Positions 8,873 to 41,617 of a stretch of DNA of 47,298 bases are shown here, one piece after another (position 1 is the stretch's first letter; every line of letters begins with the position of its first letter). The notes below the pieces were generated by a model. It saw only the letters and a program-made list of their open reading frames with translations. It was not told where the DNA came from and did not search any database. The DNA comes from an uncultured SAR116 cluster alpha proteobacterium (GTDB lineage Bacteria > Pseudomonadota > Alphaproteobacteria > Puniceispirillales > Puniceispirillaceae). The position numbers were made by a program, and so were the translations under genes. The DNA lies in contig CACGLE010000007.1 of assembly GCA_902573725.1 (NCBI GenBank), positions 1 through 47,298 on the forward strand, written 5' to 3'.

Positions 8873-9619
8873 ATGTCTAAAAAAGAAAATGCACTTATAA
8901 AATTAACTAATGCTGGTGTCAGAAAGAATAGAAATTGGCTCGTAAGAGGCGTTACTATGAGTGTGCATAGTGGGGAAATTGTTACATTAATAGGACCGAA
9001 CGGCTCAGGTAAAACAACGACCGCTAAAATGGCTCTTGGTCTTTTGGGTTTAAATGAGGGAACAACTAGTCGAAAAAACAATTTACGCATTGGCTATGTA
9101 CCTCAAAAATTACAAATCGATTGGACTGTTCCTGTAAAAGTTAAACGATTCATTTCGCTAACAAAAAAAATTTCGAATAAAGAAATTGAATTTGCATTAT
9201 CTTTAACAAATACATCCCATCTTTCTGATAAAGAAATACGCGTGCTTTCTGGCGGAGAATTACAACGTGTTATGGTTGCAAGGGCAATTGCATTATCACC
9301 AGAATTTTTAGTTTTGGATGAGCCAGTGCAAGGGGTAGATTATAAAGGTGAAGATGCTATTTATAATTTGATTGAAGAAACACGAACTAAGCTAAATTGC
9401 GGCATATTGCTTATATCCCATGACTTACATATGGTAATGTCTACGACAGACAAAGTTATCTGTTTAAATGGTCACATATGCTGCTCTGGAACACCTGGCG
9501 TTGTCACAACTAGCCCAGAATTCAAAGAGCTTTTCGGTGAGAGAATGGTAACAAATTTAGCTATTTATCAGCATAATCACGATCACGAACATTTAATGGA
9601 TGGTAGTATAAAAAAATGA
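8873..9619 (+). CDS. znuC: Zinc ABC transporter ATP-binding protein ZnuC
   Basis: This is the ATPase of the ZnuABC zinc importer, 248 aa. Walker A is GPNGSGKTT near residue 42, the signature is LSGGELQRV, Walker B is LVLDEPVQGVD, and the switch histidine is in ISHDLHMV. The C-terminal tail QHNHDHEH is histidine-rich, as in many ZnuC proteins. The start ATG has no clear Shine-Dalgarno sequence. It is the first gene of znuC-znuB-zur, downstream of the Zur palindrome. The reading frame is intact, although its membrane partner znuB next door is frameshifted. Confidence 0.95.
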   Translation: MSKKENALIKLTNAGVRKNRNWLVRGVTMSVHSGEIVTLIGPNGSGKTTTAKMALGLLGLNEGTTSRKNNLRIGYVPQKLQIDWTVPVKVKRFISLTKKISNKEIEFALSLTNTSHLSDKEIRVLSGGELQRVMVARAIALSPEFLVLDEPVQGVDYKGEDAIYNLIEETRTKLNCGILLISHDLHMVMSTTDKVICLNGHICCSGTPGVVTTSPEFKELFGERMVTNLAIYQHNHDHEHLMDGSIKK

Positions 9620-9717
9620 ATTTAAAAAAATTACTCGAATGTCTTAAAATAACTTACGTTTCAAAAGACAAGTGTTTCTGAGGTTTGATATAGACACATT
9701 AATAATTGGACAAAAAC

Positions 9718-10517
9718 ATGCTTGACGATTTTTTTATGCGTTCAATTATCGGAGGAGTTGGTGTTGCCACGGTTGTGGGCCCACTCGGATGCTTTGTTGT
9801 ATGGCGCAGACTAGCTTATTTCGGAGATACGCTATCACATTCCGCCCTTTTAGGCGTAGCTCTAGCACTGCTTTTTCAGATAAATATCACTCTATCAGTA
9901 TTCATAACAAGCGTATTTGTGGCGTTTGCTTTATTATTTTTGCAAAAAGGTCAAAAATTATCATCCGATACTTTACTTGGATTGCTAGCCCATTCCACTA
10001 TTGCTCTTGGACTTATCGCTCTTTCATTTATGACCTGGGTAAGAGTAGATTTAATGGGATTTTTATTTGGAGATATATTATCCATTACAAAACAAGACAT
10101 TTTAATTATTTGGGTTGGCGGTTTATTAGTTTTGATTTGTCTTATTTTGGTTTGGAAAAAGCTTTTTTGCTGCCACAGTTAGCCCAGAAATTGCTGAGGC
10201 GGAAGGACTAAACCCCCCAGCGTTCTAACTTTTTCTTTATGATCATGTTAGCTCTGGTCATCGCCATTTCTATGAAAATCGTCGGTGTTATGCTGTTGAC
10301 AGCATTATTGATTATCCCTGCTGCATCAGCACGTCATTTTTCTACCAGCCCAGAGCAAATGGCCATTATATCAATACTTTTTGGCATTAGTTCAGTTTTA
10401 CTTGGACTTTTTAGCTCTTTGGAATTTGATATACCAGCAGGCCCCAGTATTATTGTCGCCTCACTTATTTTATTTTTATTTACCATCTCAAAAAATTTAA
10501 TTTTCAAAGATACTTAA
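9718..10517 (+). pseudogene. znuB: Zinc ABC transporter permease ZnuB, broken by two frameshifts
   Basis: Frame 1 runs from ATG 9718 (GGA seven bases upstream) through WRRLAYFGDTLSHSALLG to a stop at 10180-10182. Removing one T from the six-T run at 10163-10168 opens AATVSPEIAEAEGLNP until a stop at 10226. Removing one C from the six-C run at 10213-10218 then joins PQRSNFFFMIMLALVIAISM and the rest. The repaired gene has 265 codons plus a stop, the normal ZnuB length (E. coli about 261 aa), with multiple membrane segments throughout. It would be the channel of ZnuABC. Two extra bases in homopolymers may be sequencing errors or true inactivation; the otherwise intact coding favours error or a very recent lesion. 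Confidence 0.88.
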
Positions 10518-10556: not shown

Positions 10557-10967
10557 ATGAAACAAAATTTAATTTTAAAAAACAAACTTACTAAAAATCA
10601 AACCTTAGTCTTAAATGTCCTTTTGAAAGCAGGTCTACCCTTAAGCGCTTATTCTATTCTTGAAAAGTTGAGAAAACATGGTTTTAAAGCGCCACTTCAA
10701 GTATATAGAGCACTTGAGAAACTTGTTGATACTGGACAAGTCCATCGCATAGAAAGTAAGAACGCTTTCATAGCTTGTGAGCATTCGTCATGTGAAATAA
10801 GTCAAATGACAGCATTTACCATTTGCCAAAAGTGCGAGAAGGTATCAGAAGTGATGGATGAGGAACTGTCAAATTATGTAAATTTACGAGCGGAAAAGCT
10901 TGGGATTAGTATGACAAAAACAAACATTGAGTTTCATGGATTATGCGATAGATGTTTAAGTGCATAA
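10557..10967 (+). CDS. zur: Fur-family zinc uptake regulator Zur
   Basis: This is a 136-aa Fur-superfamily repressor. The N-terminal winged helix includes LSAYSILEKLRKHGFKAPLQ and VYRALEKLVDTGQVHRIES, followed by AFIACEH. The dimerisation domain has two CxxC pairs, CQKC (about residue 91) and CDRC (about residue 130), that form the structural zinc site. Location at the end of the znuCB unit, and the Zur-type palindrome upstream of that unit, identify it as Zur rather than Fur. It is predicted to repress znuA and znuCB-zur when zinc is sufficient, and so to control its own synthesis. Confidence 0.93.
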   Translation: MKQNLILKNKLTKNQTLVLNVLLKAGLPLSAYSILEKLRKHGFKAPLQVYRALEKLVDTGQVHRIESKNAFIACEHSSCEISQMTAFTICQKCEKVSEVMDEELSNYVNLRAEKLGISMTKTNIEFHGLCDRCLSA

Positions 10968-27817: not shown

Positions 27818-28210
27818 GTGAAAGTTGTTGTTTCTTGTGCTCTGATTGACATAGATGGGAGAATTCTTCTATCAAAGCGTCCTAATGATACGACGATGGG
27901 TGGTTTGTGGGAATTCCCTGGAGGAAAAATCGAGACAAATGAAACCGCAGAGATGGCTATTGTACGTGAACTTAAAGAAGAATTGGATATTGACACGCAA
28001 GAAAGCTGTCTTGCACCTGTAAATTTTAGCTCATATCAATACCCCGATTTTCATATTCTTCTCTTATTGTTTATTTGCAGAAAATGGCAGGGAATACCTC
28101 GTCCCCTGTTCGCATCAAAAATTAAATGGGTTTTCGCAAATGATTTAAGAAAATATGATATGCCAAAAGCAAACAAAGATTTTATTAGTAACCTTCAGGA
28201 TTTACTCTGA
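27818..28210 (+). CDS. mutT: MutT-type Nudix hydrolase (8-oxo-dGTP diphosphatase)
   Basis: This 130-aa hydrolase has the Nudix box from GGKIETNETAEMAIV to RELKEELDI (about 33-56) and the MutT landmarks LLSKRPNDTTMGGLWEFPGG. It removes oxidised dGTP from the nucleotide pool. The start is a GTG with no good ribosome site; the ATG at 27796 is in a different frame, so translation may depend on coupling to argJ. It is convergent with the methyltransferase gene. Confidence 0.9.
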   Translation: MKVVVSCALIDIDGRILLSKRPNDTTMGGLWEFPGGKIETNETAEMAIVRELKEELDIDTQESCLAPVNFSSYQYPDFHILLLLFICRKWQGIPRPLFASKIKWVFANDLRKYDMPKANKDFISNLQDLL

Positions 28211-28230
28211 CCCTAATATAACTTAATACC

Positions 28231-29133
28231 TCAACCCTCTTTATTAGAATCGGATTTCAGATACTCTAAAAGAGAGTTTCTTGCACTTCCAGGGCGCATT
28301 GGTTTTTGCTGACTTTCGTCTGGGACCCACCCAGTAAGGGTGACAAGCTCAAAAGTTGCAATTATACTTTTATCATTATTTGAAAATTGTTGCTGGTATA
28401 TCTGGCCTGCTCTTTGAAATAATTTTTTCGATGTAAACTGCCTACTTCTTGAAACAAGAGCATTGGCCTCGCCCATTCTTCTTAAGTCTAACATTAATTC
28501 AAAAATTGAAGGGTACAAAACTTCTATTATATCTGAGTCACATACCGGGAGAGCAAAACCAGCACGCTGAAGTAACCCACCAGCAGCCTTTATGTCAACC
28601 ATCGGAATACATCTTGTATATGCTCCTTTGCTTAACTCCATCTCTGCCTGAGTAAGGCAGGCTCGTAATTCTTGAAGGGTTCGACCTCCAAAAAAATTAG
28701 CTAGCAAAAGCCCGTCTGGTTTCAATTTATTACGACATTGGGTTAACATTCCCGGAAGATCATTTACCCATTGAAAATATTGTGATGACAAAATTAGGTC
28801 AAAAAAATCCATTTCCTGAGGGATTTTCATTTCGGGGCTGTGAGTAAATTTAGCCTTCGCATGCGCAAAAATACCCATTTTCCTCGATAAATCGATCTGA
28901 TGCAGCGTAAAATTTTCGGTATGCTTAGCTGGTGACATTGATAATAGTTGTTTTGCAAGTGTGCCGTTAAAACAGCCAATATCTAGAATTGAGCTAAAAT
29001 TCCGATTTACATCGTATAATCTGTCAAGTAATCGGGTAATAGAAGCTTGGCGCAAAAACATTGTATCCTCTGGTTGGAACAAAGCCCTTATGCGGTTATT
29101 TGCAAGCATTTTGTTATCAAAAAGAGTTTTCAT
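28231..29133 (-). CDS. Class I SAM methyltransferase, BioC/NDUFAF5-like
   Basis: This 300-aa methyltransferase has SILDIGCFNGTLAKQLL as the SAM-binding motif and FDLILSSQYFQWVNDLPG, typical of the BioC-like group that includes mitochondrial NDUFAF5. The latter hydroxylates a complex I subunit. Further blocks are LKPDGLLLANFFGGRTLQEL and VDIKAAGGLLQRAGF. It keeps the alphaproteobacterial position between mutT and grxC, but comF, which often lies between, is absent. Whether it acts in biotin synthesis or complex I assembly cannot be decided. Confidence 0.82.
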   Translation of the reverse strand: MKTLFDNKMLANNRIRALFQPEDTMFLRQASITRLLDRLYDVNRNFSSILDIGCFNGTLAKQLLSMSPAKHTENFTLHQIDLSRKMGIFAHAKAKFTHSPEMKIPQEMDFFDLILSSQYFQWVNDLPGMLTQCRNKLKPDGLLLANFFGGRTLQELRACLTQAEMELSKGAYTRCIPMVDIKAAGGLLQRAGFALPVCDSDIIEVLYPSIFELMLDLRRMGEANALVSRSRQFTSKKLFQRAGQIYQQQFSNNDKSIIATFELVTLTGWVPDESQQKPMRPGSARNSLLEYLKSDSNKEG

Positions 29134-29375
29134 TTATATTTCTAGGCGATCAGCCATGAGTAAGTTCATTAAATATATTTTCTTTTTAAACTGTTTTAAT
29201 AGGGAATGATTTAACAAAATTCGTTTAAAATAATAATAAAAATAATTTTAAGCACTTTTTTATGAAATTTGTCGTTTAGAAATTTTAAATATTTAAAAAA
29301 GTATGTGTTAAATTGCAATGATTGGAAATTGAATTTAAATAACATATAAATCAATCAAAATAAAAAGAGATAAAA

Positions 29376-29636
29376 ATGCATAATCAAGTTGAAATTTACA
29401 CAACAGATTTTTGTGGTTATTGTTATCGTGCACTACAACTATTAAAAAGCTATAATATTAGCTATAGACAATATGATTTAACTCTCGACAAAGAGGGAAG
29501 AAAAGCAATGTCAAACAGAGCTGGTGGCAAAACTTCTGTGCCACAAATTTTCATCAATAACATTCATATTGGGGGCTCTGAGGAATTGATTGAAATGTCG
29601 TTAAACGGTAAACTTAAAGAATTGCTTAATTGCTAG
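29376..29636 (+). CDS. grxC: Glutaredoxin 3 (GrxC-type)
   Basis: This is an 86-aa cytoplasmic dithiol glutaredoxin: EIYTTDFCGYCYRALQLLKS with active site CGYC at residues 14-17, then SVPQIFINNIHIGGSEEL with the cis-proline and GG glutathione-binding block. The usual active site is CPYC; glycine replaces proline. The ribosome site is AGAGAT ahead of the ATG. It is followed after only seven bases by the nitrilase-family gene, a conserved pairing. Confidence 0.92.
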   Translation: MHNQVEIYTTDFCGYCYRALQLLKSYNISYRQYDLTLDKEGRKAMSNRAGGKTSVPQIFINNIHIGGSEELIEMSLNGKLKELLNC

Positions 29637-29643
29637 GAAATGA

Positions 29644-30447
29644 ATGATGCTTGTTGCAGCGGCACAATTTTGTGCATCAAATGAGATTTCTAAAAACCAA
29701 TATATAATCGAAAAACTGACTCAAAACGCGAGCTTAAAAAACGCCTCCTTAATTTGTTTTCCTGAATGCGCAAATCTAATTGCTAAAGATCGGCAAGATC
29801 TTGAAGAAAAAGCGGAGCTGGCAGACAATTCAGAAACTATTAAAAAAATTAAGTGGCTAGCAAGACAATACAGTATTATGATATCTGTTGGCTCACTCAT
29901 ATTAAAAAAATCAGGTCAAGAAAAAATATTAAATCGTGGTTTTTTAATTGGCAAATACGGGGAATGCCTTGCTACATACGACAAAATTCATATGTTTGAT
30001 GCAGACGTTGGCGATGGAAAAATCTACCGTGAGTCTGACTACTTTTACACTGGTAATCAACTAGTAACAGCTCAAACAGAAATAGCACATATTGGGCTTT
30101 CAATATGCTATGATGTAAGATTTCCTGAAATGTATCGTAAAATGTCACAGGCTGGAGCAGAAATAATAGTAACACCTGCGGCTTTTACGGAAAAAACTGG
30201 TAAAGCACATTGGCACGTTTTACAACGAGCTAGGGCAATTGAGACGGGCTGTTTTATTATAGCTGCTGCCCAATCGGGAACACATGCAGATGGTCGCCAA
30301 ACTTATGGTCATTCACTTATAGTTAATCCTTGGGGTCAGATTATTGCGGAGGCAAAAACTCTTCAGACTGAACTAGTCATAGCAGAAGTTAATTTAAAAG
30401 AAGTAGATATTGCCCGAAATGCCATCGGAGCCTGGAAATCAGATTAA
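29644..30447 (+). CDS. Carbon-nitrogen hydrolase (Nit1/omega-amidase-like)
   Basis: This is a 267-aa nitrilase-superfamily amidase. The catalytic triad can be placed: Glu in ICFPECANL (about residue 41), Lys in ATYDKIHMFDADV (about 115) and Cys in LSICYDVRFPEMYR (about 154). The FDADV and YDVRFPEMYR blocks match the Nit1 branch, whose members repair deaminated glutathione or act as omega-amidases. Pairing with a glutaredoxin fits a glutathione-related job. AGGA precedes the two possible start ATGs (29644 or 29647). Confidence 0.88.
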   Translation: MMLVAAAQFCASNEISKNQYIIEKLTQNASLKNASLICFPECANLIAKDRQDLEEKAELADNSETIKKIKWLARQYSIMISVGSLILKKSGQEKILNRGFLIGKYGECLATYDKIHMFDADVGDGKIYRESDYFYTGNQLVTAQTEIAHIGLSICYDVRFPEMYRKMSQAGAEIIVTPAAFTEKTGKAHWHVLQRARAIETGCFIIAAAQSGTHADGRQTYGHSLIVNPWGQIIAEAKTLQTELVIAEVNLKEVDIARNAIGAWKSD

Positions 30448-30490
30448 TCTTCTAAGTTTTTTTAATGATTATAATAAGTGTGCTATTATT

Positions 30491-31408
30491 CTAACTATCT
30501 TTCTGAGAAAGTGGATGATTTGTAGAGACTAACCCATGAAGACGTTCTGGACGTGTTTTGGTGTAAATTTGTGTTGTGGAAATGTCTGCATGCCCGAGCA
30601 TCATTTGTAAACTTCTTAAATCTGCTCCCCTGTTTAGCATATGAGTTGCAAAGGAATGCCTTAGCTTATGAGGACTAACTCGAGCCGGATCAATTTGTGC
30701 TATCAAAGCAATTTTTTTTAAAAGAGTAGAAAATTTTTGCCGAGTTAATACAGGTTCACTAGGTAATGCTAGGAGTTGCTCATGATGAGTATCAGGACCT
30801 GCGACATCCCTTTTTTCCAGCCAGTTTTTTATTTTAACTAACGAAACATTTGTCAGTGGCACCAAACGCTCTCTCCCACCTTTACCACGAACCAAGACTA
30901 AACTTTTTATAAAAATTATATCAGCTCTTCTTACCTGAAGCAGTTCTGAAATACGCAATCCAGCTCCATATAAAATTTCAATTCCCGCTGACATTCTTAA
31001 ATTGTCTGGTGGTGATAGCTTCTCTGCCGCTTCTAAAATAGAATATATTTCGGTCTCCAACAAACTTACAGGGATAGTTTGAGGAAGTTTAGGATTATCA
31101 AGCCAGGTAGTAGGATTATCTGTTCTATAGCCATCAGACACTAACCACTTCATCATTTGTTTAAGAGCACTAATCCTTCTTGTAATAGTTTTTGCCGATT
31201 TCCCTTGTTTTTGCCAACGGGATAGGCAGGAAAGTAATTCCCGCTCGTTGGCGGAAGAAAGATTTTTCTGAAAAATTGACTGAGTATGGGAGTCAGCTAA
31301 AACCAAATCTTTTTCATATGCTAATAATGTGTTTTTAGATGCACCAGTTTCAGCTGCTAAAACCTGCAAAAATATATTAATTTTCTGGTCTTTTTTTATT
31401 ATGGACAC
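30491..31408 (-). CDS. Tyrosine recombinase, XerC/XerD-type
   Basis: This is a 305-aa site-specific recombinase. The N-terminal SAM-like core-binding domain (about 1-100) is followed by the catalytic domain with Arg in GAGLRISELL, Lys in VRGKGGRERLVPL, HxxR in HKLRHSFATHMLNRG and His/Tyr in LGHADISTTQIYT. Length and motifs fit chromosome-dimer resolution by XerCD at dif. In alphaproteobacteria the XerD gene is often near aroK, as here. No integrase-associated element, att site or phage gene is nearby, so it is not an element integrase. XerC versus XerD cannot be decided firmly. Confidence 0.88.
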   Translation of the reverse strand: MSIIKKDQKINIFLQVLAAETGASKNTLLAYEKDLVLADSHTQSIFQKNLSSANERELLSCLSRWQKQGKSAKTITRRISALKQMMKWLVSDGYRTDNPTTWLDNPKLPQTIPVSLLETEIYSILEAAEKLSPPDNLRMSAGIEILYGAGLRISELLQVRRADIIFIKSLVLVRGKGGRERLVPLTNVSLVKIKNWLEKRDVAGPDTHHEQLLALPSEPVLTRQKFSTLLKKIALIAQIDPARVSPHKLRHSFATHMLNRGADLRSLQMMLGHADISTTQIYTKTRPERLHGLVSTNHPLSQKDS

Positions 31409-31511
31409 CCTATAATCCTAATGTTACCGGAAGGCTAACGAACCAAAAAATAAGTCTAATTTAGTTTATATATACTGTAACTAGGCGAAGTTAGGTTTCA
31501 AGCCCAAAAAA

Positions 31512-33710
31512 TTATGCTTCTTGCTTCCAAAATCTTTCTAACAAATGTGACGTAACAATTTCCTTGACTAAATCTTCAGCTGCTTCATTAAAACCTATTT
31601 CTTTTAACGACTTTACAACTAAAGCCAAATCGTTTGCAGAAATATGATTTAGCTTATGCTTCTGAAACAATGAAGATATAATTAAAATTGTCTCTGCGGT
31701 GCGTTGACTAGCCGATGATGAGAGTAACGCATTTTTCAACATTGGTTCTAATTCTAAGCTCTCGTGGGCTGTTGGTTTAGCCGTCTTCATCGAGGCTGAC
31801 TCAAGCCAATCAAATGGCTCTTTAATCATTGATGCTTGATCAAAAACAGGTAAAAGATGCCATAACCCTAATTCTTGAAGCACATCAAAGGGTGATTTTT
31901 CAGCTTTATCAATATTAAACATAAGGAGTAACGGATTAATATCTTCAGATGTGTCTAGCATATTTTGGATAGACATTTTTTGTAAGTCATCAAGTAAAAT
32001 AATTTGCTCAAATTGTGTTTTTAATTCAATTGGTATGATAGGCAATGTGTCAGCGCCTAGTCGTGTTCTGGCCAGTTCAGCATAAAATGGTAATAATGCT
32101 TTACCATTCCCAAACTCAACCTCCTCCTTAAATGAGGCTAAGAAAAGAAGATCATAATCTCTTTGGATTTCTGCTTGAAACATATTTCCAGCCAACGCTG
32201 CATAAATTTCCGCACTAGCTATTAGCCTTAAGTCACCTTTTGTGTTTTGTAATATACTGAAATCTGTCTCCATTTGACGTTCAGGATCATACAAACTACG
32301 AATAAGAGCTGAAGCTTCATATGCTATATCACTCTGTTGTAAAATTTGCCTCATAGCAAATGCCAATCTTGCTTCTCGTGTCGTATTTTTAATTAGATTG
32401 CTAGCTTGCATCATTGAAAGTGGAAGTTCTGAAATTTGATGCCATTCAATAGGAGCTTGCGCTAAATCCATTAAAATTAAATGAAGCGGTGTTAAAGAGG
32501 GCTGTGTTGGAATGTTATTAATTGATTGAGAAGATTGAAAATTTTGAAGTAATGAAAAAAATAAGGGGTCCTCTTCTCCGCTTGTACTCATCAACTCAGC
32601 TAAAAACAGTGCATCCTCGTACGCTCCATCTATAACTCTGCATAATATCTGTACCTTAAGCCAGAAAGTATCAATTTCCTGTGATACTTTTTTATCTGCT
32701 TGGGCGCAAGTTTGGGAATCGTTATATGACAATAAATTATATGCGCCAAGCCATCTCTGCCAATTTTCCCATCCCTTGTCATCCTCAGGTAACTTTCGAA
32801 TAAGATCAGCTAAGGCTTCCGATCTGCCTGCTCGCGCCAGCCATTCCATCCGAGCAAAAACCAATGATTGTGACAACGCAATATTACCAGTAACTCCGCT
32901 GGGAGGCGCTGACTTTCTGATTATAGAGGAATAGACCAGTGAGTTTATTGTTTTAGATGAACCATAAGGCTCACTCACTTGATATAAATATTCAATATTT
33001 TTTGGCTTAGATCCGTTCCAAAGTAATATATTAAATGGCATTTCTCTCTGCTGCCAATCAGATATTCCAGTTGTTACCAATCCCACACCAGATAACTCTC
33101 GCAGGTCTACATTAACTGCAGGCGTCACAAGATTACCACTTTGTTGGCTTTGTTCGTCGGCGCTGTTCGTAAATTTTGGCTGAAATGAACTTTCATCAAT
33201 CTGCATATTGGATTTAGTTTCTGATTCAACAACTTTCGCAGGAAATAGCTCGCTGATGAGCTTATCAATATCAGATGTGTTATCCTTAGAAGGAATAATG
33301 CTCCTCTCAGATGCATCATTATTAAAAACATCACTATCTATTAACTGTTCGTTTGAAATAGACTGACTAGTGTCATTATCATCTTTAATATTGGATATTT
33401 CAGCACTATTTTCAGTAAGAATCTCTGTTTGGTTGTCATTTTCTTCATCTACAATAGTTGCGGTTAAATCAAATAAATTTAATACTGGCTGATTATTTTT
33501 CTGAGTTACGATGGGCGTGGTGTATTCTTCCATTGGCACTTGAGTTGGCGGAAAAAATGATTGCAGTGAACCCTGAGGTAAATTTTGAGGAGAGTTTATA
33601 TTACCTTCCAAGTTAGAATTTCTGCTATAAATAACGTCTTGAGATAATCCTGATTGAGGTATAATAAACAAGAAAATACTTGTTAAAAAAAACCTTGCCC
33701 AAACTGCCAT
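31512..33710 (-). CDS. Large exported protein of unknown function
   Basis: I do not recognise a named family. The 732-aa protein starts with a signal peptide (MAVWARFFLTSIFLFIIPQS, then GLSQ). A low-complexity Asn/Asp/Ser/Glu-rich stretch follows to about residue 195, then a long, mostly helical Leu/Ala-rich part that looks like a repeat solenoid. A cysteine pair frames QTCAQADKKVSQEIDTFW and KVQILCRV. The ATG at 33710 has AGGA six bases upstream; an in-frame ATG at 33734 has none. That AGGA lies inside the end of the small upstream gene, whose stop is one base before this start, so the two are translationally coupled. Location between the Xer gene and aroK suggests a conserved envelope role (inference). 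Confidence 0.8.
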   Translation of the reverse strand: MAVWARFFLTSIFLFIIPQSGLSQDVIYSRNSNLEGNINSPQNLPQGSLQSFFPPTQVPMEEYTTPIVTQKNNQPVLNLFDLTATIVDEENDNQTEILTENSAEISNIKDDNDTSQSISNEQLIDSDVFNNDASERSIIPSKDNTSDIDKLISELFPAKVVESETKSNMQIDESSFQPKFTNSADEQSQQSGNLVTPAVNVDLRELSGVGLVTTGISDWQQREMPFNILLWNGSKPKNIEYLYQVSEPYGSSKTINSLVYSSIIRKSAPPSGVTGNIALSQSLVFARMEWLARAGRSEALADLIRKLPEDDKGWENWQRWLGAYNLLSYNDSQTCAQADKKVSQEIDTFWLKVQILCRVIDGAYEDALFLAELMSTSGEEDPLFFSLLQNFQSSQSINNIPTQPSLTPLHLILMDLAQAPIEWHQISELPLSMMQASNLIKNTTREARLAFAMRQILQQSDIAYEASALIRSLYDPERQMETDFSILQNTKGDLRLIASAEIYAALAGNMFQAEIQRDYDLLFLASFKEEVEFGNGKALLPFYAELARTRLGADTLPIIPIELKTQFEQIILLDDLQKMSIQNMLDTSEDINPLLLMFNIDKAEKSPFDVLQELGLWHLLPVFDQASMIKEPFDWLESASMKTAKPTAHESLELEPMLKNALLSSSASQRTAETILIISSLFQKHKLNHISANDLALVVKSLKEIGFNEAAEDLVKEIVTSHLLERFWKQEA

Positions 33711-33711
33711 T

Positions 33712-33849
33712 TTAATTCCTGAAATTACTATCATCTATCACTTCAGACACTAATTTAGTTGGTGCTGGTATATTCCAATTAGACAAAAACACAGAACCTA
33801 AAACTACGCTAACTATAATTAGGATTATAACTGTGAAAAACATCTTCAT
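33712..33849 (-). CDS. Small single-pass membrane protein (45 aa), unknown function
   Basis: A short minus-strand frame encodes a start MKMFFTVIILIIVSVVLGSV, one hydrophobic helix, then FLSNWNIPAPTKLVSEVIDD and SNFRN. A GAGG sits six bases before the ATG at 33849; in-frame ATGs at 33861 and 33870 have poorer sites. Its TAA (33712-33714) is separated by one base from the next gene's ATG, and its last codons contain that gene's AGGA. This tight coupling, plausible ribosome site and N-in helix with a proline-bearing WNIPAPTK tail argue that it is real. It may anchor or assist the exported protein encoded next. Confidence 0.72.
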   Translation of the reverse strand: MKMFFTVIILIIVSVVLGSVFLSNWNIPAPTKLVSEVIDDSNFRN

Positions 33850-34064
33850 TTTTGGCCTCATTACCTTCATTCACTTGCAACTCGAATTAGCACTTTGAAC
33901 CCTGAGATCCATACTAATCTAAAATTCAAATGGCCTTTCAATTGATTTAGAATATGATTATGGCGTGAATGCGGCACAAAAAAATTGTAGGTGCCATTTA
34001 TTTTTCTCCTTTTTAATTAAGTTCTTATTTGCCGAAAGCTTGTAAGGTCGTTAAAAAGTATATT

Positions 34065-34640
34065 ATGAAAAACAAAAAAAATTTCATTTTATCGAATACT
34101 GTAGCGTTTATAGGGTTAATGGGCGCAGGTAAAACAACGCTTGGTAGACAGTTTGCCAAAACTATATGTGCAGATTTTGTTGATAGTGATGAGGAAATTG
34201 TTCAGCGTGCCGGAATATCAATTCCAGAAATTTTTGAGCTCAGCGGAGAAGAAAAATTTCGAAATATCGAAAATCGTGTAATAGCCGATATTCTTGGGCG
34301 TTCCCCAGTTATTTTATCGACAGGCGGAGGGGCATTCATTTCTGATGAAATTAGAGAGATGCTAAACAATACGTCAGTAACAATATGGCTTCGTACAAAA
34401 CCAGAAACATTATTAGCTAGAATGGAAAATCTAAACAATCGTCCCTTACTTGCAAACAGTGACCCGCTTTTAACGTTGGCGAACTTATATGAAGAGCGAG
34501 AACCTTTTTATAAGAAAGCTCATATTGTTATCGATACAGACAACCTATCTACCACCCAATCCTTAAATTTAATAATAAAAGAACTTAAGGATAGAAAAGT
34601 ATTAAGGTTAAAATCATCTCGGTTTGAGGACATAAAATGA
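34065..34640 (+). CDS. aroK: Shikimate kinase
   Basis: This 191-aa enzyme phosphorylates shikimate in aromatic amino-acid synthesis. The P-loop is GLMGAGKTTLGRQFA, then DSDEEIVQRAG (shikimate-binding Asp), FRNIENRVI, and STGGGAFIS. The frame is open back to a TTG at 34029, but ATG 34065 gives the normal N-terminus. Its TGA overlaps the aroB ATG by four bases (ATGA), so the two are coupled. The 215-base gap upstream lies between divergent transcripts and should carry both promoters. Confidence 0.94.
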   Translation: MKNKKNFILSNTVAFIGLMGAGKTTLGRQFAKTICADFVDSDEEIVQRAGISIPEIFELSGEEKFRNIENRVIADILGRSPVILSTGGGAFISDEIREMLNNTSVTIWLRTKPETLLARMENLNNRPLLANSDPLLTLANLYEEREPFYKKAHIVIDTDNLSTTQSLNLIIKELKDRKVLRLKSSRFEDIK

Positions 34641-35758
34641 CCAAGGCTGAAAAATTAAATGTTGGCTTAGATGATAGATCCTACCCAATTTTAATAGGAC
34701 CTAATTTACTCAAAGCTGCTGATACTTATCTTTATGATTTTGTGTCTAACAGACATTGTATCATAATCTCGGATACTACTATTGGCCCTATTTATCAAAA
34801 TTTACTTGCTGAAACAATTTCCCCAATTTGTGGCAAACTAAATAATTTGCGAGTTCCTTCAGGTGAAAACTCAAAATCTTTATCCGTCTTCACTGAAATT
34901 TGTAATGACATTCTTAATATCGGAATTGACCGTAACACAATTCTTATCGCTCTCGGTGGCGGAGTTATTGGAGACTTAGTTGGCTTTGCCTCTGCAAGTC
35001 TTCTTAGAGGCATTGAATATATTCAAATACCGACCAGCCTTCTTGCTCAGGTTGATAGTTCTGTGGGAGGTAAGACTGGGATAAATGCGCAAGCAGGTAA
35101 AAATTTGATTGGCGCATTTCATCAACCAAAAATAGTCCTTACTGACACTAACGTATTATACTCTCTTTCAAAAAGAGAATTACTTTCAGGTTATGCGGAA
35201 ATAGTTAAATATGGACTTCTTGGCGACGCTAATTTCTTTAACTGGTTAGAAAAAAACTGGTCCGATATATTAGACTTAAAACAAGATAAAGTAATATATG
35301 CTGTCAAACGCTCTTGCGAAATGAAAGCAGAAATTGTTGCTTCAGATGAAACGGAAAAAGGAATGCGTGCTTTGCTTAACCTTGGTCATACCTTTGCCCA
35401 TGCATTTGAAGCTATTGCCAAGTATAACGGAGAGTTATTACATGGAGAAGCAGTTGCCGCAGGTTTAGGACTAGCATTTGATCTCTCTCATACAAAACAA
35501 TTGTGTTCAAAAGAGGATGCGGAACGTGTCCACTCTCATCTTGCACAGGCTGGTTTACCAGATAATTACGCATCTCTTCCAGCTGGAAAAGCTCCAATTT
35601 CTCAAATCATTGAACAAATGAAAAAAGATAAAAAAACTGTTTCCAACAAATTAACCTTTATTCTGGCAAATAGAATTGGAAGAGCTTGTGTTGTCCCAAA
35701 TATATCAGAAGAGGAAATTTCATCATTTTTTATTGCTAAGGGAGTCAATCATGTTTGA
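34637..35758 (+). CDS. aroB: 3-dehydroquinate synthase
   Basis: This 373-aa NAD- and zinc-dependent enzyme makes dehydroquinate from DAHP, the second step of the shikimate pathway. Key blocks are the nucleotide-binding LIALGGGVIGDLVGFASASL, PTSLLAQVDSSVGGKTGIN, and zinc ligands Glu in SGYAEIVKYG and His in NLGHTFAHAFE and LLHGEAVAAG. It overlaps aroK by four bases and the following CorC gene by eight, so all three form one transcript. Confidence 0.97.
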   Translation: MTKAEKLNVGLDDRSYPILIGPNLLKAADTYLYDFVSNRHCIIISDTTIGPIYQNLLAETISPICGKLNNLRVPSGENSKSLSVFTEICNDILNIGIDRNTILIALGGGVIGDLVGFASASLLRGIEYIQIPTSLLAQVDSSVGGKTGINAQAGKNLIGAFHQPKIVLTDTNVLYSLSKRELLSGYAEIVKYGLLGDANFFNWLEKNWSDILDLKQDKVIYAVKRSCEMKAEIVASDETEKGMRALLNLGHTFAHAFEAIAKYNGELLHGEAVAAGLGLAFDLSHTKQLCSKEDAERVHSHLAQAGLPDNYASLPAGKAPISQIIEQMKKDKKTVSNKLTFILANRIGRACVVPNISEEEISSFFIAKGVNHV

Positions 35759-37034
35759 ATATTGGACTTTGATTGTTTCAATAATTATTTTGATTTTTGC
35801 ATCAGGGTTTTTTTCGAGCTCTGAAACTGGTCTCACAGCTGCTTCTGATGCAAAAATGCGTCAACTTGCTAATAACGGAAATAGAAATGCGTCGTTAGTA
35901 GAAAAACTTAAAAATGACAAAGACTCCCTTATAAGTGCAATACTTATAGGAAACAATGCTGTAAATGTATTAGCATCGGCACTCGCGACTTCAGCGGCGA
36001 TAGCATTTTTTGACGACTCAGGTGTTTTCATAGCAACTTTAGTGATGACGATTCTAATCACTATTTTTGCTGAGGTATTACCTAAAACTTACGCTATTAA
36101 AAATGCAAATCAATTCGCTTTAGTGGTTGCAACTCCAATTAGATTTATTGTTCTAATTTTAACTCCTCTCACAATGACAATGAGATGGATCTCTCTTATT
36201 TTTCTTGGGAGAACCTCCGAAATTTCTGAAGATAGAGAAGAAGAGCTCAGAGGTATGATTGACCTTCAAATGGGAGAAAGCACTTCAGAGCTAAAAGAAA
36301 CAAAAGCGATGTTATCTTCAGTTTTGGATTTATCCGAGCTGACTGTAGATGAAATAATGACACATCGTGGCTCAGTATCTATGGTAAATGTAGAAGACAA
36401 ACCAGAAGATATTGTCTCATTTGTTCTTAACTCACCTCACACTCGCTTACCTGTATACTCTGGAAAACCTGAGAATATAATAGGTGTTTTACATGTAAAA
36501 GACCTATTAAGAGCTCTGCAAAACTCTAACAACAAAAACAAGAAAAAGTTCGACGTAGCCAAAATAGCTAGTCCCACTTACTTCGTTCCAGAAACAACAT
36601 TGCTTGCTAATCAGCTTCAAGCATTTAGAACAAGGAGGGAGCATTTTGCAATCGTAGTAGATGAATATGGTGATTTTAGAGGCATTGTGACACTAGAGGA
36701 TATCATTGAAGAAATTGTAGGTGACATTGATGATGAACATGATGTAGAACTAGCGGGTTGCACCGCGCAAGCTGATGGTTCATATGTGGTTGATGGAAAT
36801 GTAACTATTCGAGATCTAAACAGGATACTAGATATTAATCTGCCTGATAGTGATGCATCCACAATAGCTGGGTTATTGTTATATGAAACCAGAACTATTC
36901 CTCTCCCAGGAGGAGAATTTAATATTCATGGAATACGCTTTCGCGTTATTCATAGACAAAATAACCAAATTACAAGTCTTAGAATATGGACGAAACAAAA
37001 ACACGTTGGCCAAAAAAAATCATTTTCTATGTAA
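35751..37034 (+). CDS. HlyC/CorC (CNNM) family membrane protein with CBS domains
   Basis: This 427-aa protein has an N-terminal DUF21 domain of about four membrane helices (residues 5-150, with GFFSSSETGLTAASDAKM). A CBS pair follows (about 205-325, including TRLPVYSGKPENIIGVLHVK and FAIVVDEYGDFRGIVTLED), then a CorC_HlyC domain (about 340-420, GSYVVDGNVTIRDLNRIL). Relatives bind Mg-ATP and take part in magnesium efflux or balance. The ATG at 35751 has GGGAG six bases upstream and lies within the last codons of aroB; an earlier in-frame start at 35676 would overlap aroB by 83 bases and is unlikely. Confidence 0.93.
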   Translation: MFEYWTLIVSIIILIFASGFFSSSETGLTAASDAKMRQLANNGNRNASLVEKLKNDKDSLISAILIGNNAVNVLASALATSAAIAFFDDSGVFIATLVMTILITIFAEVLPKTYAIKNANQFALVVATPIRFIVLILTPLTMTMRWISLIFLGRTSEISEDREEELRGMIDLQMGESTSELKETKAMLSSVLDLSELTVDEIMTHRGSVSMVNVEDKPEDIVSFVLNSPHTRLPVYSGKPENIIGVLHVKDLLRALQNSNNKNKKKFDVAKIASPTYFVPETTLLANQLQAFRTRREHFAIVVDEYGDFRGIVTLEDIIEEIVGDIDDEHDVELAGCTAQADGSYVVDGNVTIRDLNRILDINLPDSDASTIAGLLLYETRTIPLPGGEFNIHGIRFRVIHRQNNQITSLRIWTKQKHVGQKKSFSM

Positions 37035-37081
37035 TCCGATTAGAAAATTCTTCATAACTACTAAAAAAATTGAGGTTTAAG

Positions 37082-37615
37082 ATGAATCTGCAGAACCCAA
37101 GAGATCGTAAACTCGTCCACAATAGAAATATTCACTGTATGGGTTATATAAGAAAAGATGGAGATTTTGATATCGAAGCTGTGCTTACTGACAGTAAAAC
37201 CTATGATTTCCCGTCTGACACACATGGCATGGTCAAAAAAGATACGCCCTATCATCACATGAAAGTGAGAATAACGGTTGATTCAAATTTAAGAGTCAAG
37301 GATGCTCATGCGATAACAATTTCGGGACCTTATCAAATTTGTCCAAAAGGAGCAGAAAACTTTAAAAACTTGATTGGAATAAAGATAGGCCCCGGTTGGA
37401 AGCGACGCGTTCAAGAAAGGATTGGGGGACCTTCCGGATGCACACATATCACTGAATTAACCGGGCCTATTGCAACCACAGCCTATCAGACTATCGGAGG
37501 CGAAATATCTCGTCAAAGAAGGAGGGGAATAGAAGCAAATAATTTACCAGAAATTAATCAAGAAAATAATCTAAAAAATAGCTGTATAGCCTATTCAGAG
37601 GCTAACAATAAATAA
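37082..37615 (+). CDS. DUF2889 family protein
   Basis: This 177-aa protein has YIRKDGDFDIEAVLTDSKTY, HHMKVRITVDSNLRVKDAHA and GCTHITELTGPIATTAYQT, which I recognise as DUF2889. The GAGG six bases before ATG 37082 fixes the start; the TTG at 37070 is less likely. Proteins of this group have no settled function. It lies 47 bases after the CorC gene on the same strand and is convergent with bolA. Confidence 0.8.
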   Translation: MNLQNPRDRKLVHNRNIHCMGYIRKDGDFDIEAVLTDSKTYDFPSDTHGMVKKDTPYHHMKVRITVDSNLRVKDAHAITISGPYQICPKGAENFKNLIGIKIGPGWKRRVQERIGGPSGCTHITELTGPIATTAYQTIGGEISRQRRRGIEANNLPEINQENNLKNSCIAYSEANNK

Positions 37616-37627
37616 AATTGTGCTGAT

Positions 37628-37888
37628 TTAAATTGATTTAACATTCAAAGCTACAGCATGTACTGAAGTATCTAATAAGGGCTTTAATACCCCATAGATC
37701 AATCGATGAGATTGTACTCTGGTTTTTTCGGAAAATGCCTTAGCTTCTATATCAACTTCAAAATGACTTTCACCCCCCTCTTTTGCACCTGCATGACCAT
37801 AATGAGCCGCACTCACATCTCGCACTTCTAAAAAATTTGGAGAAAATGCATCAGTTAATAAATTCTCTATTAGGCTTCTAGTTGACAT
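37628..37888 (-). CDS. bolA: BolA family protein
   Basis: This 86-aa protein of the BolA/IbaG type has NFLEVRDVSAAHYGHAG, SHFEVDIEAKAF and TRVQSHRLIYGVLKPLL. BolA proteins pair with monothiol glutaredoxins in Fe-S cluster handling and stress response; the conserved His in the QSHRLIY block is present. It is divergent from the J-domain gene (115-base gap), a conserved alphaproteobacterial arrangement with cobS and cobT following. Confidence 0.9.
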   Translation of the reverse strand: MSTRSLIENLLTDAFSPNFLEVRDVSAAHYGHAGAKEGGESHFEVDIEAKAFSEKTRVQSHRLIYGVLKPLLDTSVHAVALNVKSI

Positions 37889-38003
37889 CTTCTTTACTCT
37901 TTCATTGCAACTTGTAATTTATTTAAATAATTAAATTAAGATTTAATCTGTAAATTTAATCTATCACCTTGTCTTAATAAACTTATAACCTTAGTTTACA
38001 AAT

Positions 38004-38597
38004 ATGACGAAAGCAAAGATACCAGAAATAAGAGGACTCAAAGAGGAACCCTCGCAAACCAAAAAATGTGAAGCGGAAGATTGTTTAGAAGATGGCATTT
38101 ATCCCGCACCACGTAACCGTGACGATTTACGTTCCTATGTCTGGTTCTGTCTTCAGCATGTGCGCGAATATAATAAAGGTTGGAATTACTTTGATGGTTT
38201 AAATGGAGATGCACTTGAAGCAGAAATAAGACGCGCAACTACCTGGGAGCGGCCAAGTTGGAGATTCGGAACTGGCGGAACGGATTCCTATTTTAAGAAT
38301 TCCAGTAATTTCACTTCAGGGGATATATTTGGTTTTTTTCCAAATAATAATAAAGGAAAAAAAACTAAAGGTCAGCAAACAATGCCCCCTGACGAAAGAT
38401 GGGCTTGGGAAATTTTTGACATGGAACCCTGTTCTGAACAAAAAAAAATAAAACAGCACTATAAAAAATTGGCAAAGTTAAATCACCCAGACAAGAATCA
38501 GGGGGACACAGGAGCTGAAGAACGATTAAAAGATATTAATATTGCCTATAGCATATTAAAACAATTATATCCCGAAGCTACTTCAAAATTGAAATAA
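38004..38597 (+). CDS. J-domain protein (C-terminal DnaJ domain)
   Basis: This 197-aa protein carries a J domain at its C-terminus (about 130-190): the HPD motif is in LAKLNHPDKNQGD, followed by LKDINIAYSILKQLYPEA. The N-terminal 120 residues contain CEAEDCLEDGIYPAPRNRDD and WFCLQHVREYNKGWNYFDG; three cysteines and the His in that region could bind a metal. It should stimulate DnaK on a specific client. The family is typically encoded between bolA and cobS in alphaproteobacteria. Gene-specific function is unknown. Confidence 0.9.
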   Translation: MTKAKIPEIRGLKEEPSQTKKCEAEDCLEDGIYPAPRNRDDLRSYVWFCLQHVREYNKGWNYFDGLNGDALEAEIRRATTWERPSWRFGTGGTDSYFKNSSNFTSGDIFGFFPNNNKGKKTKGQQTMPPDERWAWEIFDMEPCSEQKKIKQHYKKLAKLNHPDKNQGDTGAEERLKDINIAYSILKQLYPEATSKLK

Positions 38598-38627
38598 GTA
38601 ATAAAAAATTTTTGGGTGGATTTTATC

Positions 38628-38640
38628 ATTGATTATCAAT
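38628..38640. promoter_or_regulatory. Palindrome ahead of cobS
   Basis: ATTGATTATCAAT has six-base arms about one central base. It lies 80 bases before the cobS start and directly ahead of a TTGACA at 38644-38649, so it could be an operator overlapping a promoter. The matching -10 box is poor, and no cobalamin riboswitch is seen. Confidence 0.3.
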
Positions 38641-38720
38641 AAATTGACACAGATTTATAACATTTAATAGTACTGTATAAAACTTAAGCCCATCTTCAAT
38701 AATTAGAAAGGTGAACTCTT

Positions 38721-39725
38721 TTGTCTGAAATTATCAATAACGGCATTGACGCACATTCGATACCAACTCCTGATACCAATTATAATGTAAGGGAAACATT
38801 TGGATTAGACTTGGATATGGAAGTCCCTGGTTTTTCTGATATTTCTGAATATGTTCCTACATTGGACCCAGATTATCAGTTTAACCATGATACTACTCTT
38901 GCAATCTTAGCTGGGTTTGCATTCAACCGGCGTGTAATGATTCAAGGGTACCATGGAACGGGTAAATCAACTCATATTGAACAGGTAGCAGCCAAGTTAA
39001 ATTGGCCTTGCCTGCGGATTAATTTAGATAGCCATATAAGCCGAATTGATCTCATAGGTAAGGATGCTATTGTTTTAAAAAACGGTAAACAAGTAACAGA
39101 ATTCAAGGAAGGTTTATTGCCGTGGGCATTAAGAAATCCGGTTGCTTTAGTATTCGACGAATATGATGCGGGAAGAGCTGATGTAATGTTCGTTATACAA
39201 CGTGTTTTAGAGGTGGATGGAAAATTAACGTTACTTGATACTAATAAAGTCATTCACCCAAATGCTAGTTTTAGATTATTTGCGACTGCAAATACAGTTG
39301 GTCTCGGTGATACAACAGGTCTATATCACGGCACTCAGCAAATAAACCAAGGCCAGATGGATAGATGGTCGATAGTGGCTACCCTAAATTATTTACCGCA
39401 TTCTGATGAAGTAGATATAATTGTCGCAAAACAAAAAAGTTACGATACAAAGCAGGGTAAAGAGCAGGTCTCACAAATGGTTCGTTTAGCTGACCTAACC
39501 AGAAAGGGTTTCATGGCTGGTGACTTATCCACTGTTATGTCACCTAGAACAGTTCTCACTTGGTCTGAAAATGCTCGTATTTTTAATGACATAACTCTCG
39601 CTTTCAGATTAAGCTTTTTAAATAAATGTGATGAAGTAGAGCGACCAATTATAGCAGAATATTATCAGCGAGTATTTGGTGTCGACCTACCTGAGTCATC
39701 CAGCTTCTCAACCATATCTTCTTGA
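38721..39725 (+). CDS. cobS: Cobaltochelatase subunit CobS
   Basis: This 334-aa AAA+ ATPase is the motor subunit of aerobic cobaltochelatase (with CobN and CobT), which inserts cobalt into hydrogenobyrinate a,c-diamide. Walker A is [13 protein letters not shown], Walker B is [14 protein letters not shown], and [19 protein letters not shown] is typical of CobS/MoxR. The start is a TTG with AAGGTGA seven bases upstream. Its TGA overlaps the cobT start. CobS-CobT pairs also occur in genomes without full B12 synthesis, so the metal and substrate are not certain from this window. Confidence 0.94.
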
Positions 39726-41617
39726 ATCAGAAACGGTCTGTCATAGTGAGCAAACCTGTAGATGAAATATTTTTGAAAGCAAATGCAGCAAGCTTGCGAG
39801 CGTTAGCAGGTGGTACCCAACATGAAGTTAGATATGTTGGTCAGGATAGCCTTATATCCAACGATACCGTAAGACTGCCAACGCCGCCATCAGAGCGTTC
39901 TACTAACTCGGAAAACCAGCTACGAGGGGCCAGTGATGCTGCTGGTTTATGGCTTGCACATCACAATAAGAAAACCCATCAAAGAGTTAGTCCAAAATCA
40001 TCTGCTGCCAAAATAATATTTGAAGCTGCAGAAAAAGCTAGAGTTGAAGCTATCGGAGCCAATAATATGGCAGGTGTCCGGAAAAATCTGACTGAACGCC
40101 TTGAATCACATTACACACTACACCCTTTAGGTGTTCCCTCACCAGAGGCATCTGACCAAATAGAAAACGGCTTATCAGAAGCTGTACGACTGATTATCCG
40201 AGAAAAATTAACCGGTGAAGCTCCACCTTCCGCGGCTGGCATGGCAATGGATTTGTGGAGGCCGTTCATCGAGTCTAAAGCTGGAAATTTATTGGAAAAG
40301 ATGAAGACAGCTACTCAAAATCAAATTGTATTTGCAGATTTCGCCAAACAATTAATCGGTGCATTACAAAGTGACCTTGGAGAAAATTCTGAGGGTGGAG
40401 ACGAAGGCGAAGGGGATGATGATGGGAGTAATCAACAAACTGAAGATGAACAGGAGAGCGAACAGGAAGCTCATTCTGCATCGGGAGAGGAGGAGTCAGA
40501 TGGAGATGACTCACAATCTATAGAAACGGAAGGTGATGCCGCAGCGATGGCTTCTGATGATGGATTAGACGATGAAGCAGATCAGGAGATGGATGGACAT
40601 GCAGAGGGAGATTCGCCAGGGGGAGACCCTAGAGATTATAAATCAGTTGATAACATCCGAAACCATGAGTATAGAGTGTTTACAGATAAGTTTGACGAAG
40701 TAATAGAGGCTTCGGAGTTATGTGACTCTGAGGAGCTTGATAGGCTAAGAGGGCTTCTTGATAGGCATCTTGAAAGCCTAACTAGTGTAATTGCGAAATT
40801 AGCCAACAGACTGCAACGTAAACTAATGGCTTACCAAAATCGATCTTGGGATTTTGACCTTGAGGAAGGTGTGTTAGACGCGGGTAAACTACATCGTGTA
40901 GTGACTCAGCCCCTATCTGCGTTATCATTCAAACAAGAGCAAGACACTAAATTTAGGGATACAATTGTTACCTTACTATTGGATAATTCTGGTTCTATGC
41001 GTGGTCGACCTATTACAATTGCCGCCGTCACCGCAGATATTCTTGCCCGCACTTTAGAAAGGTGTGGTGTAAAAGTTGAAATCCTTGGCTTTACAACAAA
41101 AGCATGGAAAGGCGGACAGGCAAGAGAAGAGTGGCAAATTGAAGGAAAGCCAGATAAGCCTGGAAGATTAAATGACTTACGACATATCATTTATAAAGCA
41201 GGTGATATTCCCTATCGCCGAGCAAGACGTTCATTAGGATTAATGCTTCGTGAAGGTATTCTTAAAGAAAACATAGATGGGGAAGCCTTAATGTGGGCTC
41301 ACAACAGGTTACTTGCTCGTCATGAAGATAGACAAATATTGATGGTTATCTCAGATGGCGCTCCTGTAGATGACTCCACACTTTCTGCAAATAGTGGAAA
41401 TTACCTTGAAAAACATTTACGACAGGTTATCTCACTAATACAAGAACGTTCACCTGTCGAATTACTGGCAATTGGTATTGGCCATGATGTTACCCGTTAC
41501 TATGAACGAGCTGTGACCATAACCGATGCAGAGCAATTGGGTGGTGTCGTAATGTCTCAGCTCGCAGATTTATTTGATGAAAACACTAAATCGCCACGAA
41601 GGATTTTTGCTGGTTGA
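39722..41617 (+). CDS. cobT: Cobaltochelatase subunit CobT
   Basis: This 631-aa protein forms the second ring of the CobST complex. An N-terminal helical domain is followed by a strongly acidic Asp/Glu/Ser-rich linker (about 222-300). The C-terminal von Willebrand A domain begins around 415 with the MIDAS motif [14 protein letters not shown] and contains [13 protein letters not shown] and [12 protein letters not shown]. The TTG start used overlaps the cobS stop by four bases; a GTG eight codons later (39746) is an alternative. No cobN is in the window. Confidence 0.93.

Follow-up and report, generated by a model that had tools for sequence, protein, structure and literature searches.

Known systems and the locus

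KdpF and CydX are tiny single-pass membrane subunits encoded beside a larger partner. Proteins of this kind have 30-60 aa and one helix, and their genes are adjacent to or overlap the partner gene. Helical-repeat proteins of the cell envelope form a second point of comparison, including the LbcA-type TPR adaptors and other periplasmic scaffolds; repeat solenoids often bind short tails.

Here we describe a small gene and a large gene in the window, the 47,298-nucleotide stretch of SAR116 cluster DNA that was analysed as a whole (Table 1). Compared by description, the small gene resembles those of the KdpF and CydX kind: the large gene directly follows it in 54 of 60 family loci and has its first in-frame ATG inside it in 47 of these 54. 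It differs in that the partner is an exported, soluble-looking repeat protein rather than a polytopic membrane enzyme, and in that the small gene also occurs without this partner. The likeness of the large protein to the LbcA-type adaptors and other periplasmic scaffolds lies in its being a predicted exported helical-repeat solenoid, while the scores against the LbcA-type adaptors (Foldseek E 1.7-2.0, VIA Z about 7.2-7.3) are at the level of generic repeat matches. The small gene is ordinary in kind, but belongs to a broad family that has no name in Pfam and NCBIfam.

Table 1. Features of the small gene, the large gene and their neighbours in the window
Feature	Position	Strand	Basis
Small gene, 45 aa, MKMFFTVIILIIVSVVLGSVFLSNWNIPAPTKLVSEVIDDSNFRN	33712..33849	-	sequence; coding constraint; conserved family
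GAGG, ribosome-site-like, 6 nt before ATG 33849	33856..33859	-	sequence; 10/10 congeners
Hydrophobic helix, codons 4-22, predicted transmembrane	33784..33840	-	inferred from sequence
Tail, codons 25-45, WNIPAPTKLVSEVIDDSNFRN	33715..33777	-	35-member alignment; periplasmic side inferred
Large exported protein, 740 aa from ATG 33734 (732 aa from ATG 33710)	31512..33734	-	sequence; fold models
ATG of large frame inside small gene, offset -23 from end of small stop	33732..33734	-	homologous ATG in 47/54 families
Alternative ATG of large frame, AGGA at 33720-33717	33708..33710	-	9/10 congeners
XerC/XerD-type tyrosine recombinase, next gene on same strand	30491..31408	-	NF001399 above cut-off
Shikimate kinase aroK, divergent neighbour	34065..34640	+	NF010552 above cut-off
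3-Dehydroquinate synthase aroB	34637..35758	+	TIGR01357 above cut-off

The small gene and its coding constraint

The short frame pointed out in a sequence-only reading of this DNA is confirmed and lies on the minus strand, which that reading did not give. It runs from ATG 33849-33847 to TAA 33714-33712, and an upstream in-frame ATG at 33870 would extend it up to 52 aa. The GAGG ribosome site named in the same reading is present, with a spacing common to all 10 same-genus loci listed. A short, basic N-terminus leads into the predicted helix, followed by the tail beginning WNIPAPTK, so that the anatomy described earlier can likewise be read from the sequence. In the 35 aligned members L22, W25, I27, P28, A29 and P30 are invariant (35/35), and the class consensus of the C-terminus in the 35-member profile, GGxVFLAxWDIPAPTxxVEKVIPDDRFPR, reaches the stop. 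No Rfam matches were found in 33500-34200, and a promoter scan gave 2 sites against 2.3 expected.

In a dN/dS-type comparison, which the sequence-only reading had proposed as a check, codons 1-37 of the small frame gave a pN/pS of 0.25 among 10 congeners (45 pairs). The remaining forward frames gave 0.80 and 1.87, with stops in 10/10 and 9/10 sequences, and the variable columns at codon positions 1, 2 and 3 numbered 14, 10 and 31 of 37. Low in-frame pN/pS, stops elsewhere and third-position variability together argue that the small frame is a protein-coding gene, and from these comparisons we consider it close to certain that the gene is real. The three reverse frames gave 0.64, 0.30 and 1.74, of which the 0.30 is read as a mirror of the same third positions. 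In four disjoint close pairs, 17 of 29 changes were non-synonymous, compared with 77% expected (p 0.018).

Family identity

Neither the small nor the large protein of the window matches a Pfam or NCBIfam model at the curated cut-off. For the small protein, the candidates DUF5367 (17.5 of 25 bits), DUF3139 (13.6 of 27.3), FixS (11.1 of 23.1), DUF2116 (10 of 26.8) and SosA (13.8 of 60) all fell below cut-off, and a scan of 35 small proteins gave only scattered matches (E 0.04-0.1, 1-2 members each). Literature searches found no paper on either family; among the matches listed, a search by motif strings returned fluorochemical papers only. CydX and SEP20 are named in a study of the Sinorhizobium small proteome (PMC10117765), from the main text of which xerD and aroK are absent.

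Distribution and genomic neighbourhood

Searches of 61 genomes, the window's own and those of 60 relatives, located the large protein in 57 and, with E relaxed to 10, the small protein in 49. Within the window's family (37 genomes, including the window's own) every genome has a small match on the same contig as the large gene and close by. In the 30 best loci the small frame precedes the large frame in 30/30. A profile of 35 members found the small protein in 212 of 387 alphaproteobacterial genomes (E <=0.01), of which the weakest matches may be due to chance, and a narrower profile found it in 208/387 (E <=0.05). Named records with the small gene include SAR116/Puniceispirillum, Sneathiella, Curvivirga and Aestuariispira. 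In a sample of the phylum 12 of 249 genomes matched, including two outside the class (E 0.0018 and 0.0067), which are taken as chance because they are weak and lie inside frames of 362 and 343 aa. One small homologue and one large homologue gave no match in a plasmid collection.

The neighbourhood was compared at 60 loci, each standing for one family and drawn from those of the 212 matches with a listed place; this sample leans to well-conserved copies, because it was picked from mostly strong E-values. Upstream, on the opposite strand, AroK is encoded in 58/60 of these loci and AroB in 56/60, while a XerD-like gene lies downstream on the same strand in 50/60, with five of the ten lacking loci cut by contig ends. 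As judged from these comparisons, the small gene is a real, widespread alphaproteobacterial gene with a constant place between aroK and xerD, in agreement with the earlier impression that similar tiny proteins occur at this place in other alphaproteobacteria.

The XerD-like recombinase of the window passes the general tyrosine-recombinase model, and it scores below the NCBIfam cut-offs for XerD (266 bits, cut-off 329.6) and for XerC (236 bits, cut-off 335.15). Elsewhere in the window, a frame at 9706-10182 (+), which we take from its sequence to resemble a zinc-transport permease, stops early and a second membrane frame at 10212-10517 (+) continues; the two adjoin what are presumably an ABC ATPase (8873-9619) and a Fur/Zur-like frame (10557-10967). 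The split permease-like gene at 9706-10517 is a broken gene or a sequencing error.

Pairing of the small and large genes

In the six family loci in which the large gene does not directly follow, either xerD stands directly after the small gene (L173, L197, L216, L225) or the contig ends (L195, L228). Among the 387 genomes the large protein is present in 250 (E <=1e-4); 180 genomes have both proteins, 32 only the small, 70 only the large and 105 neither, the thresholds differing between the large protein and the small (E <=0.01). The co-occurrence has a Fisher P of 1e-20, a value inflated by shared ancestry. Of the 32 small-only genomes 16 were inspected. In eight, xerD comes right after the small gene and the large gene is lacking (the four loci above and L245, L271, L276, L278). 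Three (G086, G195, G386) carry a divergent large gene missed by the whole-genome search, which therefore undercounts the large gene. Two (G384, G437) end at contig ends, and three (G239, G314, G392) have neither large gene nor xerD nearby.

These counts show a usual pairing of the small gene with the large gene for a putative exported protein. The suggestion of a conserved unnamed pair is supported to this extent, but the pair is not obligate, and the one-base gap that was part of the suggestion is probably not usual.

The start of the large gene

In the sequence-only reading, a gap of one base parts the small gene from the start of a 732-aa frame, and the window does have this arrangement: the small stop ends at 33712, base 33711 intervenes, the ATG begins at 33710, and its AGGA lies inside the small frame as described. 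The large frame also has the further ATG at 33734, and with a start there the two genes would share 23 nt. Counted in nt from the end of the small stop, the earliest in-frame ATG of the large gene lies at -20, -23 and -26 in 43, 3 and 1 of 54 families, respectively; in the other 7/54 it lies elsewhere or no such ATG turned up within the range searched. In 27 of the 30 best loci, the large frame has an ATG at -20 or -23.

The embedded ATG arises where an N or D codon has T in its third position and the following codon begins with G. Of 47 sites with an N/D codon and such a G in the matching frame, 46 have the T, compared with 22.8 expected from N/D codon usage in the large genes at these loci (P 7e-15), and even in loci that avoid T elsewhere T is used in 15/15 (4.7 expected). 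A ribosome-site-like stretch stands ahead of the embedded ATG in 20/47, against a background of 3% at randomly chosen positions of that region. Of the eight loci in which xerD directly follows the small gene and the large gene is lacking, one has the embedded ATG. The T excess argues that the overlap is selected, and together with the ribosome-site-like stretch and the near absence of the ATG where the large gene is missing, it points to a start under selection for the large gene. On this codon-level evidence, selection on the overlap is close to certain, and the large gene probably starts inside the small gene in most lineages, the one-base gap not being the usual arrangement. In the window's genus, the ATG at -23 is present in 10/10 and that at +1 also in 9/10, both preceded by a ribosome-site-like stretch; the window's own two genes may overlap by 23 nt.

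The large exported protein

The large protein begins with a signal-peptide-like sequence, followed by a variable stretch that is disordered in the model and by ~500 residues of helices. Residues W239, C343 and C365 of the window's protein are invariant in 40/40 sequences. Modelled alone, the helical part gave a pLDDT of 86.5 and a pTM of 0.86, and the predicted architecture is a helical-repeat solenoid preceded by a disordered stretch. The solenoid model consists of helical pairs; the TPR-domain match Pex5 (3r9a_D) has a Z of 8.3 with 147 aligned residues at 3.6 A, and the Foldseek E is 0.14 at best. Fold searches with the whole protein and with the solenoid gave no significant structural match, only a general helical-repeat likeness, and sequence searches against solved structures gave nothing below E 0.13. 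The Campylobacter flagellar scaffold 9hmf and LbcA were matched at insignificant E and are not claimed as relatives. TPR models found 0 families in the window's protein by sequence, while among 40 relatives TPR_19 was found in one (E 0.0037), LB_289_fam in one (6.2e-5) and T7SS_EccC_a in one (0.0044).

Divergent small frames

Where the large gene is present and the profile finds no small match, 14 loci were inspected: ten have a short membrane frame in place, three have none and one is at a contig end. The 35-member profile thus undercounts the small gene. The expectation of a small frame upstream of the large-protein homologues holds for the loci with direct succession and for these 10/14 profile-missed loci, but not for the 3/14 without a recognisable frame. 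The short membrane frames (L231, L234-L240, L242, L243) have drifted nearly beyond recognition, some keeping traces of the tail (examples of drifted tails are VEEQLPNDRFF and EPSPPNQPIDQPISKEITP); size and place of the small frame outlive its sequence. In family f2, of the same order, 10 of 11 genomes have no small match in the search at E of 10, which may reflect loss or strong divergence of the small gene there; one f2 locus (L233 in G037) has the large gene and no small membrane frame was found.

aroB was sought in 20 genomes without a small match and found in 19, and 18 loci were inspected. Nine of the 18 have a short membrane frame of one type ahead of the XerD match (e.g. MPSLFRFL...NPKPREMTVTIPPDKF), with no large-gene match in any of the nine; one (L267) carries a frame containing IPSPSK, without an XerD match, one (L261) is doubtful and seven show no frame. 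This divergent type (e.g. in G362, G296 and G516) shares with the main family its place, a similar length, the helix, and IP and K/R-F-like tail residues; it differs in having no WxIPAP and no large-gene match. Five of the nine frames were aligned, and comparison with the main family profile gave a probability of 85 (P 6e-6, 38 columns). We take the type to be the Rhizobiales protein often labelled 'histidine kinase' in databases.

Possible roles of the small protein

In the model that we propose, the N-terminus of the small protein would be cytoplasmic and its single helix would span the inner membrane, placing a tail of ~20 residues (consensus WDIPAPTxxVEKVIPDDRFPR) in the periplasm. Ribosomes finishing the small gene would feed translation of the large gene, so that both proteins are made together at the membrane. 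In the last and least certain step, binding of the tail would hold the exported helical-repeat solenoid at the inner membrane. Docking of the tail in the solenoid is the leading guess, since short tails are common ligands of solenoids and the conserved tail extends as far as the C-terminus. The small protein is accordingly named here as a candidate inner-membrane anchor whose tail docks the solenoid, a prediction to which we give a probability of roughly 0.4.

Alternatively, the small protein may work alone or in another inner-membrane complex, the overlap reflecting operon packing and coupled translation with no binding. The eight inspected loci in which the small gene stands next to xerD and the large gene is absent suggest this, as do the nine divergent membrane frames before XerD, five of which match the main family, and the partial conservation of the tail where the large gene is missing (L197, L216, L245, L271). 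Against it stand the strong co-occurrence of the small and large proteins and a weak co-variation of their distances that exceeds what AroB and XerD account for (partial r 0.18, permutation p 0.011, 45/60 loci), as well as locus L172, where the pair stays together and aroK, aroB and xerD are not beside it. Because the small gene has a life without the large gene, we rate this independent role as equally probable with docking. At loci that lack the large gene the tail must bind some other partner, so that the small protein probably also takes part in a separate envelope assembly. A broader version of the docking reading, in which a nearly class-wide envelope module has the periplasmic tail dock an exported scaffold, the two proteins are synthesized in step because the scaffold gene begins within the tail codons, and the microprotein is the older core, with very divergent forms surviving in lineages that have no scaffold, appears rather unlikely.

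The small frame could also be a leader that controls only translation of the large gene, its peptide having no job, as might be suggested by the large-gene start codon and the frequent ribosome-site-like stretch inside it. This is very improbable given the protein-level constraint over codons 1-37, ahead of the overlap, the invariant W-x-I-P-A-P far from the start signals, and the eight inspected loci with the small gene and no large gene; a regulatory leader peptide drifts freely and occurs only with the gene it regulates, and the small gene does neither. Short frames are common in this region (92 of >=30 aa within 28000-40000), but a chance open frame is already contradicted by the conserved sequence, place and codon pattern across many genomes and deserves practically no weight.

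Implications

The small and large proteins represent two families spread through a bacterial class, for which no model at cut-off in Pfam or NCBIfam and no paper was found. With a family model for the small gene, annotation pipelines could call it. The small gene has a constant spot and is under protein-level constraint in groups as far apart as SAR116 and Sneathiella, and its product probably matters for the cell envelope.
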